Both the position numbers and the translations under genes were made by a program. A DNA stretch of 64,000 nt from positions 426,707 to 490,706 of the forward strand of contig NZ_KI912094.1 in the NCBI RefSeq assembly GCF_000517025.1. Direction: 5' to 3'. Shown in pieces: positions 13,289 through 41,862 of the stretch. The stretch is from Halonatronum saccharophilum DSM 13868. Its GTDB lineage: Bacteria; Bacillota; Halanaerobiia; Halobacteroidales; Halobacteroidaceae. Within the stretch, counting starts at the first letter, position 1; the number at the start of each line of letters is the position of its first letter. The notes beneath the pieces were generated by a model, which saw nothing but the letters and a program-made list of their open reading frames with translations, had not been told where the DNA came from and did not search any database.

Positions 13289-14602
13289 CTACATAAACAA
13301 ATACTTGATTACAAATAAAACAGCCAAAATATTAATAATTGTATTTGTCTCTTTTCCTCTTCCAGAAACAAGTTTCATTACTGGATAGATAATAATACCT
13401 GCTGCAATACCCTCAGCAATACTGAAAGTAAATGGCATCATAGCAATAGTCATAAAAGCTGGGAACGCTTCAGTGAAATCTTCAAAATCAATATCCTTAA
13501 TAGCTCCCATCATCAGAACACCAACAATAACCAATGCAGGTGCTGTTGCTTCAGAAGGTACCAATAATACTAATGGAGATATTAATAAAGAAGCCAAGAA
13601 TAAAACCCCAACAGTTACTGCAGTCAAACCAGTCTTACCACCTTCAACAATTCCTGCAGTACTCTCTACATAAGTAGTTACAGTACTTGTTCCTAAAACT
13701 GCTCCTACAGTTGTTCCAACAGAATCAGCCATCAGAGCTTTATCTGCTCTAGGTAAATTCCCATCTTCATCTAACATACCTGCCCTAGCTCCAGTTCCAA
13801 CCAAAGTACCAATAGTATCAAATAAATCTACAAAAGTTAAAGCCAAAATAACATTTAACATACCAAAGTTAAATAACTCTGGGAATCCATCTATAAAAGC
13901 ACCAAAAGATTCAAAACTAACTGCCAATGAGAAAGGACTAAATCCTTCTCCAATCTCTACAACACCCATTGGAATACCAATAATAGTTGTAATAACTATC
14001 CCAATTAAAATAGAACCTTTAAACCCTCTAGCCATCAAAATACCAGTTATAGCCAAACCAATCAAAGCTAAAAGCACACCTGGTTCAGTTAAATTATCAG
14101 TCAACGCTACTAAAGTAGCCTGATCTGATATAACTATTCCAGCATTCTTAAGACCGATTAAAGCAATAAATAAACCAATACCAGCACTTACTGCACTCTT
14201 TAAAGAAGTTGGAATTGCATTTACCAAAGCGGTTCTTAATCCTGTTATCGTAATAAAGATAAAGAAGATACCAGAAACAAATACTGCTGCTAAAGCTGCT
14301 TGCCAACTTAATCCCATTCCTAAAACCACAGTATAAGCAAAGAAAGCATTAAGCCCCATACCTGGTGCTAGTGCAAAAGGATAATTTGCATAAAAGCCCA
14401 TAATCAAAGTAGCTAAAGCTGCTGAAATAACTGTTGCAGCCATTACAGCCTCAAAAGGCATCCCTGCATCGCTAAGAATTAATGGATTAACTATAATAAT
14501 GTAAGCCATTGTCATAAAAGTAGTTACCCCTGCCATCATCTCCGTCTTAACATCAGTTCCATGTTCCTTCAACTTAAAGAAATTTTCAAAAAAATCAGAC
14601 AT
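13289..14602 (-). CDS. NCS2/AzgA-type guanine-hypoxanthine permease
   Basis: A 437-residue permease of the AzgA/PbuG branch with about 12 membrane spans. Family landmarks are TTFMTMAYIIIVNP, ALAPGMGLNAFFAYTVV, LIALIGLKNAGIV, the substrate-domain LTFVDLFDTIGTLVGTGARA and STVTTYVESTAGIVEGGKTG. It brings purine bases into the cell. A guanine riboswitch with a terminator precedes it, which supports guanine/hypoxanthine over adenine as ligand. It is monocistronic. Its ATG follows AAGGGGG. Confidence 0.92.
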   Translation of the reverse strand: MSDFFENFFKLKEHGTDVKTEMMAGVTTFMTMAYIIIVNPLILSDAGMPFEAVMAATVISAALATLIMGFYANYPFALAPGMGLNAFFAYTVVLGMGLSWQAALAAVFVSGIFFIFITITGLRTALVNAIPTSLKSAVSAGIGLFIALIGLKNAGIVISDQATLVALTDNLTEPGVLLALIGLAITGILMARGFKGSILIGIVITTIIGIPMGVVEIGEGFSPFSLAVSFESFGAFIDGFPELFNFGMLNVILALTFVDLFDTIGTLVGTGARAGMLDEDGNLPRADKALMADSVGTTVGAVLGTSTVTTYVESTAGIVEGGKTGLTAVTVGVLFLASLLISPLVLLVPSEATAPALVIVGVLMMGAIKDIDFEDFTEAFPAFMTIAMMPFTFSIAEGIAAGIIIYPVMKLVSGRGKETNTIINILAVLFVIKYLFM

Positions 14603-14692: not shown

Positions 14693-14717
14693 AAGGATGT
14701 AGTATATAACTACAATA

Positions 14718-14792
14718 ATCACCCCGTAGTCGGCTAATTTACGGTTAACCGGTAGAAACTTTCAGGCCCTATTCCTGATATTATACGGATAG
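14718..14792 (-). ncRNA. Purine (guanine-class) riboswitch aptamer
   Basis: The minus strand reads CCGTATAATATCAGGAATAG, then GTTTCTACCGGTTAACCGTA, then AGCCGACTACGG. P1 pairs CCGTA with TACGG. The specificity position in GACTAC is C, which marks guanine/hypoxanthine rather than adenine. Control is by the terminator just downstream. Confidence 0.93.
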
Positions 14793-14869
14793 AATAATTT
14801 ACTTTTATTTTTTATCTCACACAGTTCTCAAAACCAGCAAATATAATTATATTTGCCTTTTATGCTCTA

Positions 14870-14986: not shown

Positions 14987-16534
14987 TTACTCCCACTCTA
15001 TTGTTGCTGGAGGTTTAGAAGTTATATCATAAACAACCCTATTAACTTCTTCAACTTCATTTGTTATTCTTGTAGATATTTTCTCTAAAACTTCATAAGG
15101 TATCCTAGACCAATCAGCAGTCATAGCATCCTTACTCTTAATGGCCCTCAATCCTATTGTATAAGAATAAGTTCTTCCATCTCCCATAACTCCTACACTC
15201 CTTATAGGAGGTAAAACAGCAAAGTATTGCCAAATTTCTCTATCTAAACCTGCTTCTTTAATCTCTTCTCTAAAAATAGCATCTGCCTCTTGTAGTATTT
15301 CAACCTTCTCTGGTGTTACCTCTGCTAAGACTCTTATACCCAATCCTGGTCCTGGAAAAGGTTGTCTCCAAACAACCTCAGCAGGTAAGCCAAGAGCTTC
15401 TCCTACTTCACGTACCTCATCTTTAAACAATTCTCTTAATGGTTCAATCAACTTAAACTCTATATCTTCTGGAAGCCCACCTACATTATGATGACTCTTG
15501 ATAGTAGAAGCGCCTTCACTTGCTCCACTTTCAATCACATCAGAATAGATAGTTCCTTGAACTAGAAATTTAGCATCTCCTAACTTGCCTGATTCTTCTT
15601 CAAAGACCCTAATAAACTCATTTCCAATTATCTTTCTCTTCTCTTCAGGATCTCCTACTCCATCTAAAGCATTTAAAAACCTTTCTTGAGCATTTACATA
15701 AACTAAGTTCATAGAAAATTCTTTGGCAAAAGTCTCTTCTACTTGTGCACCTTCACCCTTTCTCAACAAACCATGGTCAACAAAGATACAAGTCAAATTA
15801 TCACCAATTGCTTTATGTACTAAAGCAGCAGCTACAGAGGAGTCTACACCCCCAGAAAGTCCACATACAACCTTGTGATCTCCAGCCTTCTCCTTTATCT
15901 CTTCAATAAGCTCATCTACTAAGATAGATGTTTTCCAGTCCCCTTTACACTTGCATACCTTCTTTAAGAAATTATCTAAAATTTCTCTACCTTGAGGTGT
16001 ATGCTCAACTTCAGGATGGAACTGCACACCATAAAAACCTTTCTCTTTATTACCAATTGCTGCAACAGGCGAGTTATCAGTATAGCCTATGATTTCAAAG
16101 CCTTCTGGTATCTCTTCAACTCTATCACCATGACTCATCCAACACTCTAACTCATTACCTAAACCTGCAAAAAATTCTCCATTTTCCTTAACCTTCATAG
16201 TAGCTCGTCCATACTCTCTATGCTCTGCTTTTTCAACTTTGCCACCAACTAAAGAATGAGTCATCAACTGCATACCATAACAAATTCCCAAAATAGGTAT
16301 TCCTAACTCAAATATCTCCTCATCAACATATGGAGCCCCCTCTTCGTATACACTAGCAGGTCCTCCAGAAAAGATTATCCCTTTAGGATTCAACTCCTTA
16401 ATCCTATCTACTGATATATTATAAGGAAAAACCTGTGAATAAACATCTGTTTCTCTTACCCTACGAGCAATTAACTTACTGTATTGCCCACCAAAATCCA
16501 ATACAACTACTAATTCATGATCTTTTCTTCCCAT
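14987..16534 (-). CDS. guaA: GMP synthase (glutamine-hydrolysing)
   Basis: A 515-residue two-domain enzyme converting XMP to GMP. The class I amidotransferase domain (1-195) has the nucleophile C85 in GICYGMQLM and the His/Glu pair in [11 protein letters not shown]. The ATP pyrophosphatase domain has the P-loop GLSGGVDSS. The C-terminal dimerisation domain ends [12 protein letters not shown], the standard GuaA terminus. The ATG at [10 protein letters not shown] follows GGGAGGG; an in-frame upstream extension of 11 codons lies on the leader and is rejected. A guanine riboswitch controls it, giving end-product feedback. Confidence 0.97.
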
Positions 16535-16565
16535 TATAAAATCCCTCCCAATTCTTATTATAAAC

Positions 16566-16611
16566 AAAAATCCTAAACCTTAATCTCATCACGGGATTAA
16601 TAGTCTAGGAA
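16566..16611 (-). terminator. Expression-platform terminator of the guaA riboswitch
   Basis: The stem TCCTAGAC / GTTTAGGA with inner TTAATC / GATTAA is followed on the minus strand by TTTTTGTTTA, then the guaA ribosome site. Confidence 0.75.
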
Positions 16612-16663
16612 ATAGAGATATAATAATTATAGTTGTCCTATAATAAATTATGTAAACTATATC

Positions 16664-16742
16664 ACTATCTCGTAGTCAGCTAAATTTACGGTTAGCTGGT
16701 AGAAACCATCGAGCCTTATCCCCGAAGTTATACGAAATGGCG
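16664..16742 (-). ncRNA. Purine (guanine-class) riboswitch aptamer of guaA
   Basis: The minus strand reads TTTCGTATAACTTCGGGGAT, then GGTTTCTACCAGCTAACCGT, then AGCTGACTACGAGA. P1, P2 and P3 boxes match the purine class. The discriminator in GACTAC is C, so guanine. It is the second such element within 2 kb. Confidence 0.93.
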
Positions 16743-16775
16743 TCAAAATGCCTGATTTTTTTACTTATATAAGGT

Positions 16776-38846: not shown

Positions 38847-39212
38847 TTACAAAGCTACAGCCTGGGCTGCTGCATAATCTCTGCTATGAGATATAGATAT
38901 CATTATCTTATCAATTCCCATCTCTAGTGCTAAATCTTTGGCCCTGTTTTTTAGTTTAACCTCAGGCTTGCCTAATTCATCCTTTACTATCTCAATATCC
39001 TGCCATTTAAAACCTCTAAAGCCAGTCCCTAAAGCCTTAACTACTGCCTCCTTAGCAGCAAAACGACCTGCATAATAGGACCAAGGCACTTTATGTTTTT
39101 CACAATAGTCTATCTCCTCTTCTGTAAAGAACCTCTTCTTGAATCTACTGTGCCTCTCCATTCCTTCTCTTATTCTTTCAATCTCAATAATATCTATTCC
39201 AATACCTTTCAT
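38847..39212 (-). CDS. acpS: Holo-[acyl-carrier-protein] synthase
   Basis: A 121-residue phosphopantetheinyl transferase that activates acyl carrier protein. It has the Mg-binding start GIGIDIIEIERI, RFFTEEEIDYC, the FAAKEAVVKALGTGF motif and the end ISISHSRDYAAAQAVAL. Length fits AcpS. Located downstream of the glmM/ribozyme unit and upstream of nnr. Confidence 0.95.
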   Translation of the reverse strand: MKGIGIDIIEIERIREGMERHSRFKKRFFTEEEIDYCEKHKVPWSYYAGRFAAKEAVVKALGTGFRGFKWQDIEIVKDELGKPEVKLKNRAKDLALEMGIDKIMISISHSRDYAAAQAVAL

Positions 39213-39323: not shown

Positions 39324-39359
39324 AAAAGTACTTTGGAGAGAAGTCTCCAAAGTACTTTT
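39324..39359. terminator. Terminator between the ribozyme and acpS
   Basis: AAAAGTACTTTGGAGA-GAAG-TCTCCAAAGTACTTTT, a 16-base perfect stem. It would end the transcript that carries the ribozyme before acpS. Confidence 0.7.
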
Positions 39360-39454
39360 ATCTATCAGTATAAAGAACAACTATATATTAATTCTATTTT
39401 TAATCTTTCCTTAACTGCTATGAATTATCATTTTAAACAAAAATGACAAAATTC

Positions 39455-39600
39455 TTCTAAATTACTTTGTCCTAGAAATCACTTTCCGGCTTTAATAATT
39501 TAGTTAAGGCTTAGAACTAAAGCCTGGAGGCATCCGCCGATAAATCGATACTCCCCCTCCTCGTCAACTCCCTAAGAGCCCTGGCGCTATATTTAGACTC
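39455..39600 (-). ncRNA. glmS-type self-cleaving ribozyme, no glmS downstream
   Basis: The minus strand contains the conserved glmS core in order: AGCGCCAGGGCTC (cleavage between A at 39588 and G at 39587), GTTGACGAGGAGGGGGAGTA then TCGA, TCGGCGGATGCCTCCAGG and the downstream AGCCGGAAAGTG ... AGGACAAAG. All catalytic-core blocks are present, so it should bind glucosamine-6-phosphate and cleave. No glmS follows: within 100 bases a terminator appears, then acpS. It lies just after glmM. See findings. Confidence 0.92.
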
Positions 39601-39648
39601 TAGCTACTGGCTGTTGGCCCTTAGCTAAAAGGTTAAAGCTGCCCTTAA

Positions 39649-39686
39649 TAAAATTAATTTACAATTTAAATTGTAAATTAATTTTA
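39649..39686. terminator. 38-base A/T palindrome at the glmM stop codon
   Basis: TAAAATTAATTTACAATTT followed by its exact complement; the glmM TAA is its outer end. With only A/T pairs and no T-tract it is a doubtful terminator, but it could shape the mRNA end above the ribozyme. Confidence 0.4.
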
Positions 39687-41021
39687 TCCAAGTTCCTTCT
39701 CAATAACTTGAGCAGCTTTATCAGCTAAATTATCCACTTCTTCTTTATCCTTACCCTCAACCATTACTCTAATTACAGGCTCAGTCCCTGAAGCGCGGAC
39801 AAAAATTCTTCCTTCATCAGCTAAAAGATCTTCAACTTCATTAATAGCTGATTTAATCTTCTCATTATCTTCCCAATCCTTACTTTCAACTTCTATATTT
39901 TTTAAAATCTGTGGATACTCCTTTAATTCTTTCCCCAGTTCAGATAAAGCTAGATCACGCTTCTGTACCACATCAATTAATTGAAGAGCACTTAAAACAC
40001 CATCTCCAGTTGTATTATAATCTAAGAAGATAATATGACCTGACTTCTCTCCACCAAAATTATAACCTTTTTCTAACATTCTAGCCAATACATAACGATC
40101 ACCATTAGCTGTAACTGAAACCTTACCTTCTACCTCCTTCATAGAATCATTTAAGCCAAGATTACTATATTTAGTAGCAACTACTGTATTACTGGCTAAT
40201 CTTCCTTCGCTTATTAATTGACGACCACAGATTGCTAAGATATAATCGCCATCTATAAGGTTACCTTTCTCATCTACTGCAATTAAACGATCTGCATCGC
40301 CGTCATGAGCAATACCAAGATCCGCTCCATAATCTAAAACTGCCTTTTTTATCACCTCAGGATGGGTAGATCCACAATCTACATTGATATTATAACCTGT
40401 CGGATCATCATTGATAGATATAACCTCTGCTCCTAGCTCTTTTAATACCTTAGGGGCCAACTTATAAGCAGCTCCATTAGCAGAATCTACTACAACCTTT
40501 AAACCTACAAAACTACTATCTACTGTATCTTTAAGATACTCAACATACTCGTCGATAGCATTATGAATAAACTCTACCTTCCCTACCTTATCACCATCTA
40601 CTAAAGGTAAATCATCTAAAGAGTTAAAGATAATATCTTCAATATAGTCTTCTTGCTCATCTGAGAGTTTAAACCCATCACCATTAAAGAACTTTATTCC
40701 ATTATCCTGTACTGGATTATGGGATGCAGAGATCATAATACCAGCCTTGACACCCTTAACCTTCGTTAAGTAAGCAACCACTGGTGTTGGCAGAACACCA
40801 ACCTTGACAACATCAATTCCCAAAGATGTAATACCAGCTACCAATGCAGCTTCTAACATATCACCAGATACCCTAGTATCCTTTCCTATTAATATCTTAG
40901 GTCTTTGCTCACCCTTACATAGATAATAAGCACCTGCTTTACCTATTTGAAAGGCAAGTTTAGCTGTCAAAAACTTGTTTACCTCGCCTCTTACACCATC
41001 AGTTCCAAATAATTCTCCCAT
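39684..41021 (-). CDS. glmM: Phosphoglucosamine mutase
   Basis: A 445-residue enzyme converting glucosamine-6-phosphate to glucosamine-1-phosphate for peptidoglycan and LPS. It begins MGELFGTDGVRGEVN. The catalytic phosphoserine loop is GIMISASHNPVQDNG, the metal loop DGDADR, the sugar loop GEKSGH, and the phosphate loop RASGTEPVIRVM. Start chosen at the ATG 7 bases after GGAGG. It is 88 bases downstream of cdaA, and a glmS-type ribozyme lies in its 3' region. Confidence 0.97.
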   Translation of the reverse strand: MGELFGTDGVRGEVNKFLTAKLAFQIGKAGAYYLCKGEQRPKILIGKDTRVSGDMLEAALVAGITSLGIDVVKVGVLPTPVVAYLTKVKGVKAGIMISASHNPVQDNGIKFFNGDGFKLSDEQEDYIEDIIFNSLDDLPLVDGDKVGKVEFIHNAIDEYVEYLKDTVDSSFVGLKVVVDSANGAAYKLAPKVLKELGAEVISINDDPTGYNINVDCGSTHPEVIKKAVLDYGADLGIAHDGDADRLIAVDEKGNLIDGDYILAICGRQLISEGRLASNTVVATKYSNLGLNDSMKEVEGKVSVTANGDRYVLARMLEKGYNFGGEKSGHIIFLDYNTTGDGVLSALQLIDVVQKRDLALSELGKELKEYPQILKNIEVESKDWEDNEKIKSAINEVEDLLADEGRIFVRASGTEPVIRVMVEGKDKEEVDNLADKAAQVIEKELG

Positions 41022-41109
41022 TATCACACCTCCTATTATTATATGTATAACCTTCTTAATCCTTAGATATATACTCTTTTATTATATGCTAATCTTACTG
41101 CCAGTTCAA

Positions 41110-41862
41110 CTATTTAACATCTATCTCCTCAAACTTAGCAAGAAGTTTTTCTTTTAAGCTAAATTCATCTAAATTATATTTTATCTTCCCATTTTCCATA
41201 GTTGAAACTACACCTGTCTCCTCTGATACAACTATAACCAGTGCATCACTCTCTTCACTCATACCCACAGCAGCTCGATGTCTTGTCCCTAAGCTCTGTT
41301 TCAACCTTTTATTCTTGGTTAATGGCAAGATACAGCTTGCAGCTAATATCCTTTCATTATGAATGATAACTGCTCCATCATGCAAAGGAGCTTTAGAATT
41401 GAATATATTCAATAATAGCTCTGGAGAAAATTTAGCATCTAACTCTACTCCAGTATCAATTATCTCCTTTAAACCGCTCTCTCTTTTTAATACTACTAAC
41501 CCCCCTATCTTTTCTTTGCCCATTCTAATTACTGTAGAAACTAACTTATCTATATATATCTCAGATTTATTTGCTTGTGTTAAATAACTTAACATCTTTC
41601 CGCGCCCAATCTGCTCTAAAGCCCTTCTTAGTTCAGGCTGAAAGACTACTGGCAAAGCAATTAAAACCATAGTTCTTATCTGGGCCAACAATAAATTAAA
41701 TATCCTTAGCCCCAATATTTGAGTAGCAAAACTAATGATAAAGAGAACCAAAACTCCATTTAATAGATGTATAGCCCGAGTCTCTCTAATCAAAGTTATT
41801 GCTTTATAAGAGATCAACAAAGTGACTATTATATCAATTACCATTATAAACTCAAACTCCAT
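41110..41862 (-). CDS. cdaA: Diadenylate cyclase CdaA
   Basis: A 250-residue membrane-bound c-di-AMP synthase. There are three N-terminal membrane helices (about 8-95). The DAC domain follows, with the catalytic DGAVIIHNERI and GTRHRAAVGMSEESDA motifs and VVSEETGVVS. In most Firmicutes the order is cdaA-cdaR-glmM; here glmM follows directly and cdaR (YbbR) is missing. Its product controls potassium and osmolyte transport, relevant to a halophile. ATG after GGGGAGAGGG. Confidence 0.96.
   Translation of the reverse strand: MEFEFIMVIDIIVTLLISYKAITLIRETRAIHLLNGVLVLFIISFATQILGLRIFNLLLAQIRTMVLIALPVVFQPELRRALEQIGRGKMLSYLTQANKSEIYIDKLVSTVIRMGKEKIGGLVVLKRESGLKEIIDTGVELDAKFSPELLLNIFNSKAPLHDGAVIIHNERILAASCILPLTKNKRLKQSLGTRHRAAVGMSEESDALVIVVSEETGVVSTMENGKIKYNLDEFSLKEKLLAKFEEIDVK

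Follow-up and report, generated by a model that had tools for sequence, protein, structure and literature searches.

On the minus strand of the window (the whole 64,000-nucleotide stretch analyzed here), a full-length glmS ribozyme lies behind glmM with no glmS after it, and we think that it is probably an element left at the ancestral site of glmS, with no dedicated role at present. Four things are established here: the positions of the elements, the order of the genes in relatives, the native ancestry of the glmS that the genome still has and the existence of a twin ribozyme in front of that gene. The orphan belongs to a known ribozyme family, though out of its usual place, and does not make a new class. 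How did it come to stand alone, and does it do anything where it stands?

The ribozyme behind glmM

The original prediction had assigned positions 39455-39686 to an orphan glmS ribozyme. That holds for the ribozyme itself, which occupies 39447..39599 (minus strand); the remainder, up to 39686, holds a second, A/T-rich hairpin at 39649-39686. Over its full length (model positions 1-167), the orphan matches Rfam family RF00234 in cmscan with 107.5 bits (the curated cut-off is 37) and an E value of 3.2e-24, which is far above chance. Alignment to the family consensus puts the predicted cleavage site at 39587..39588 (minus strand), between A(-1) at 39588 and G(+1) at 39587, in AUAUA/GCGCC. The A/GCGCC motif and all 36 positions that we treat as invariant are unchanged, and the core pseudoknot strands, the adenines of a purine-rich IL4 (AAA, ACAAA), the GNRA loop of L4 (GUGA) and its P1 partner strand are intact; two pairs of P4 are broken. 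Folded alone by thermodynamics, the ribozyme scores z -0.13, as expected of a core that is pseudoknotted. A mutation map of the Bacillus subtilis ribozyme found the IL4 adenines, the L4 tetraloop and its P1 receptor to be intolerant of change and the adjacent helices tolerant (PMC11602151). Because those intolerant elements are intact and the damage is confined to the P4 helix, the orphan RNA can probably still cleave, at 39588/39587, with glucosamine-6-phosphate (GlcN6P).

Read along the minus strand, the neighborhood runs cdaA, glmM, stop-codon hairpin, ribozyme, terminator-like hairpin, acpS and an nnr-like gene (the window genes were named by NCBIfam, except nnr, which was named from its own sequence). 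The diadenylate cyclase gene cdaA, an ancestral neighbor of glmM, lies at 41110..41862 (TIGR00159, 246 bits), and the phosphoglucosamine mutase gene glmM, directly upstream of the orphan, at 39684..41027 (TIGR01455, 588 bits). Over the glmM stop codon, and upstream of the cleavage site, sits the A/T-rich hairpin (39649..39686), a perfect stem of 19 pairs (-16.3 kcal/mol, z -7.9) that occurs once within the window; nothing like it was seen at the same place when we compared the intergenic sequences of seven relatives. A terminator followed by acpS had been predicted downstream and is there: an intrinsic terminator-like hairpin with a 16-pair stem at 39324..39359 (-21.3 kcal/mol, z -7.3), in the gap between the ribozyme and the holo-ACP synthase gene acpS at 38847..39212 (TIGR00516, 107 bits). 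All of these features are on the minus strand. The orphan is therefore not the leader of a glmS mRNA, having glmM upstream and a terminator and acpS downstream.

The claim of an intact core with no glmS after it was also correct. There is no open reading frame of at least 80 amino acids between the end of glmM (39684) and the start of acpS (39212), and tblastn found no convincing trace of a glmS coding remnant in that gap (best E 0.34). The interval from the glmM stop codon to the ribozyme shows no promoter-like site, so transcription of the orphan would depend on read-through from glmM. Elsewhere on its minus strand, the window carries two purine riboswitches 1.8 kb apart, one (14707-14808) preceding a purine-permease-like gene (13289-14602) and the other (16653-16755) preceding guaA (14987-16567), both genes being named by eye.

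The place of glmS in relatives and in the source genome

All seven same-family relatives (G001-G007) have the order glmM-ribozyme-glmS, with one ribozyme each. The gene acpS is found downstream of glmS in G003, G004, G006 and G007 (in some, after a single intervening small gene or open frame), and cdaA precedes glmM in G003, G004 and G006; in G001, G002 and G005, other genes follow glmS in the stretch compared. Judged by this gene order, the window keeps the ancestral neighborhood minus glmS. A glmS directly behind the ribozyme in seven of seven relatives is also the very result that the original prediction had set against a special glmM element.

Where, then, is glmS? We find exactly two glmS ribozymes and one full glmS in the source genome (G000; 99% complete, in 8 contigs). 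The twin ribozyme (G000:C6:257359-257528) lies on a different contig from the window, scores 130.9 bits, which is above the orphan, and stands 136 nt upstream of that only full glmS, so that a glmS elsewhere with its own ribozyme, a possibility raised at the outset, does exist. (The spacer between the two, L003:8530-8661, is at the long end of the range for the class, which is 27-149 nt and mostly below 60.) This ribozyme-glmS cassette sits between ptsI and fxsA; ptsI and glmS at this site were named by NCBIfam, and fxsA is our own naming. In G005 and G007, ptsI and fxsA are directly adjacent with no glmS between them, and in G003, only an rpoN-like gene separates them, again with no glmS there. 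Taken together with the glmM-ribozyme-glmS order of the relatives, these sites point to a gain of ribozyme-glmS at ptsI/fxsA and a loss of glmS behind glmM. In maximum-likelihood trees, the GlmS of G000 groups with those of G003, G005 and G007 at 100/99, and its GlmM does likewise at 84/86. Since the two trees agree, the relocated glmS is native, with no sign of outside transfer. The suggestion that glmS had been lost or moved, leaving a relic, is supported, and a relocated glmS accounts well for the orphan.

A path that fits these arrangements would start from an ancestor with cdaA-glmM-ribozyme-glmS-acpS-nnr. In the source lineage, a ribozyme-glmS cassette would have been copied to the ptsI/fxsA site. 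A later deletion would have removed the leader and coding sequence of the old glmS, such that the ribozyme and the terminator stayed behind glmM. We infer this order of events, the copy first and the deletion second.

Constraint, timing and possible function

If the orphan is a relic, its sequence should have something to say about it, and what it says is mixed. From the twin and the g4 relatives (G003, G005 and G007), we reconstructed an ancestor by parsimony over 141 aligned positions (leaving out the P1 loop), and we counted 36 positions as invariant, namely those of A/GCGCC and any with conservation of 95% or more among other ribozymes. Since that ancestor, the orphan has taken 15 substitutions and the twin 5, about a threefold difference (relative-rate p 0.04). 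All 15 lie outside the 36 invariant positions, where 3.8 would be expected (P about 0.009); in the 5′ half, 11 of 40 variable positions have changed and none of 29 invariant ones (P 0.0013); and pairing is lost at just two places, both in P4, against the 4 to 6 or so losses expected from random mutation, giving a joint P for invariant positions and pairs of 0.0001-0.0012 that varies with the transition bias. These P values, and the relative-rate p with them, are guides rather than proofs, the ancestor and the pairs being of our own choosing and the orphan having been noticed for being intact. In P2, three substitutions (A-U to G-C and G-C to G-U) have left every pair in place. Such pair-preserving change, together with the untouched invariant positions, is unexpected in a ribozyme that has long been unconstrained and counts against a relic; the faster evolution relative to the twin and the broken P4 pairs look like signs of relaxation. 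The original argument that a conserved core implies selection or recent loss is a fair one insofar as no invariant position has changed; the constraint may predate the loss of glmS.

Timing is also where the strongest competitor lies. Over its 3′ half, the orphan shares 87% identity with the twin, and no other ribozyme exceeds 69%; over its 5′ half, it shares 81% with the twin and 85% with the ribozyme of G054, and is equidistant from many ribozymes. The substitutions are unevenly spread between the halves (p 0.004). The pair thus looks like a mosaic, and a history of a single duplication may be incomplete; gene conversion of the 3′ half or fast change of the 5′ half would produce such a mosaic alike. 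It is quite possible, though less likely than the reading that we prefer, that two cassettes long coexisted, as in some Bacilli, with gene conversion between the ribozymes, and that the old glmS was deleted only recently, so that the intact core reflects earlier duty. The mosaic and its uneven halves favor this history, as does the existence of genomes with two cassettes, and the lack of any remaining trace of a second glmS speaks against it; it overlaps with our preferred explanation and differs mainly in timing.

A present function is another matter. Might the orphan be selected as an element of the glmM 3′-UTR, where a GlcN6P-dependent cut sets the 3′ end of glmM, its stability or the read-through into acpS-nnr? 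The constraint just described is what one would want to see: invariant positions unchanged against about 27% of variable positions changed in the 5′ half, P2 pairs all kept through three substitutions and every element that B. subtilis does not tolerate losing (the IL4 adenines, the L4 GNRA loop and its P1 partner; PMC11602151) in place. Yet the arrangement is found in one genome only, the orphan has evolved faster than its glmS-linked twin with two P4 pairs broken and a strong hairpin stands between the glmM stop codon and the cut, and so, we consider such selection unlikely. Slightly less likely still is the specific form in which the glmM 3′-UTR has co-opted a glmS ribozyme as a processing element, through which GlcN6P acts on the message of the enzyme that follows in its own pathway, altering the stability or the 3′ end of that message.

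The hairpin also bears on the original proposal that cleavage with GlcN6P exposes glmM mRNA to 3′ exonucleases. If the hairpin terminates transcription, the ribozyme would hardly be made. On transcripts that read through, the cut would free a short 3′ piece (the ribozyme body plus the terminator), and the glmM fragment would keep the hairpin, which should impede 3′ exonucleases. Because it remains on the glmM side, the cut should have little effect on glmM, and because it would either terminate or protect, the proposal loses its force. Moreover, a cut 3′ of glmM is already ancestral in every relative, and switching off glmM when its own substrate, GlcN6P, is high would make poor sense for the pathway. 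In the usual setting, glmS is controlled because its message is degraded once cleaved (PMC11477304); the downstream fragment of the orphan, unlike a glmS message, has no gene before the terminator. The orphan as an element left behind would most likely be in slow decay.

There remain two accounts of little weight. Horizontal replacements are common in general, and one might imagine that the glmS at the ptsI site was acquired from outside and replaced the old copy; we rejected this as very improbable, the congruence of the GlmS tree with that of GlmM largely refuting it, and the twin has a 5′ half 94% identical to G007 and a 3′ half in common with the orphan. An assembly error that joined glmM to acpS without glmS is the least probable of all, with nothing found in its favor, given that the window and the twin are each embedded in a long contig (720 kb and 615 kb, respectively), that the two ribozymes differ at many positions and that the genome has only one full glmS.

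Why does any of this matter? In operons of the form cdaA-glmM-ribozyme-glmS, the cut destroys the glmS message and also sets the 3′ end of glmM on read-through transcripts. An orphan behind glmM without glmS separates the two effects and so provides a natural experiment on what, if anything, the cut means for glmM.

Rarity of the arrangement and known systems

To our knowledge, glmS ribozymes almost never stand away from glmS, and in a 2011 collection by McCown, all but two of 463 were reportedly in glmS mRNAs. Our literature search turned up no paper that joins the glmS ribozyme, glmM and an orphan. Among 59 genomes of the class, 55 carry a ribozyme (56 ribozymes in total), and for 54 of these 56, a glmS begins on the same contig after 27-149 nt. 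For one more, in G043, the contig ends within glmS, whose start can be seen, and this ribozyme is counted as preceding glmS, which makes 55 of 56; the sole exception is the orphan in the window. Four genomes of the same class (G039, G040, G041 and G050) lack both a glmS ribozyme and a full glmS match. The P1 loop of the glmS ribozyme can carry insertions of ~80 to 230 nt (L046:3562-3927, L042:3344-3608), some of which resemble AATTGACAATT-type intergenic sequence of the same genomes.

The orphan count rests on the class genomes; in the Clostridia and Bacilli, we inspected only genomes with two ribozymes for a following glmS, such that single-copy orphans there could be missed. In the Clostridia sample (343 genomes, 136 with a match), two genomes carry two. 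One (G332) has two ribozyme-glmS cassettes, and the other (G210, L148:414-5562 on G210:C39) has glmM-ribozyme-truncated glmS (370 aa)-ribozyme-glmS on a 12-kb contig that is possibly an assembly error. This tandem, with one glmS eroded, looks like a possible intermediate of the path that we propose. In the Bacilli sample (349 genomes, 309 with a match), 15 have two, the second match of G660 being below the cut-off. For G734, G587 and G555 we looked at both copies, and for G662, G512 and G431 at one; every one has glmS next, and in the three complete pairs, one copy is behind glmM. In 14 Bacilli genomes with two ribozymes (L153-L180), two glmS paralogues appear to be ribozyme controlled; several such two-cassette Bacilli, like G210, may show a state midway along the proposed path.

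Set beside the glmS ribozyme of RF00234, the orphan has the full model match, the cleavage site, the core pseudoknot strands, the IL4 adenines and the GNRA L4; it differs in lying after glmM and before a terminator rather than in the 5′ UTR of glmS. Set beside the glmM-ribozyme-glmS order of Bacillota and of the Halanaerobiia-type relatives, the window shares cdaA-glmM before, acpS-nnr after and a ribozyme right behind glmM, but its glmS is absent from the middle and located elsewhere with its own ribozyme. And with the genomes that hold two cassettes (14 of the sampled Bacilli, G332 and G210), it shares two glmS ribozymes per genome; whereas each ribozyme inspected there has glmS next (truncated once, in G210), one of the two in the source genome has none.
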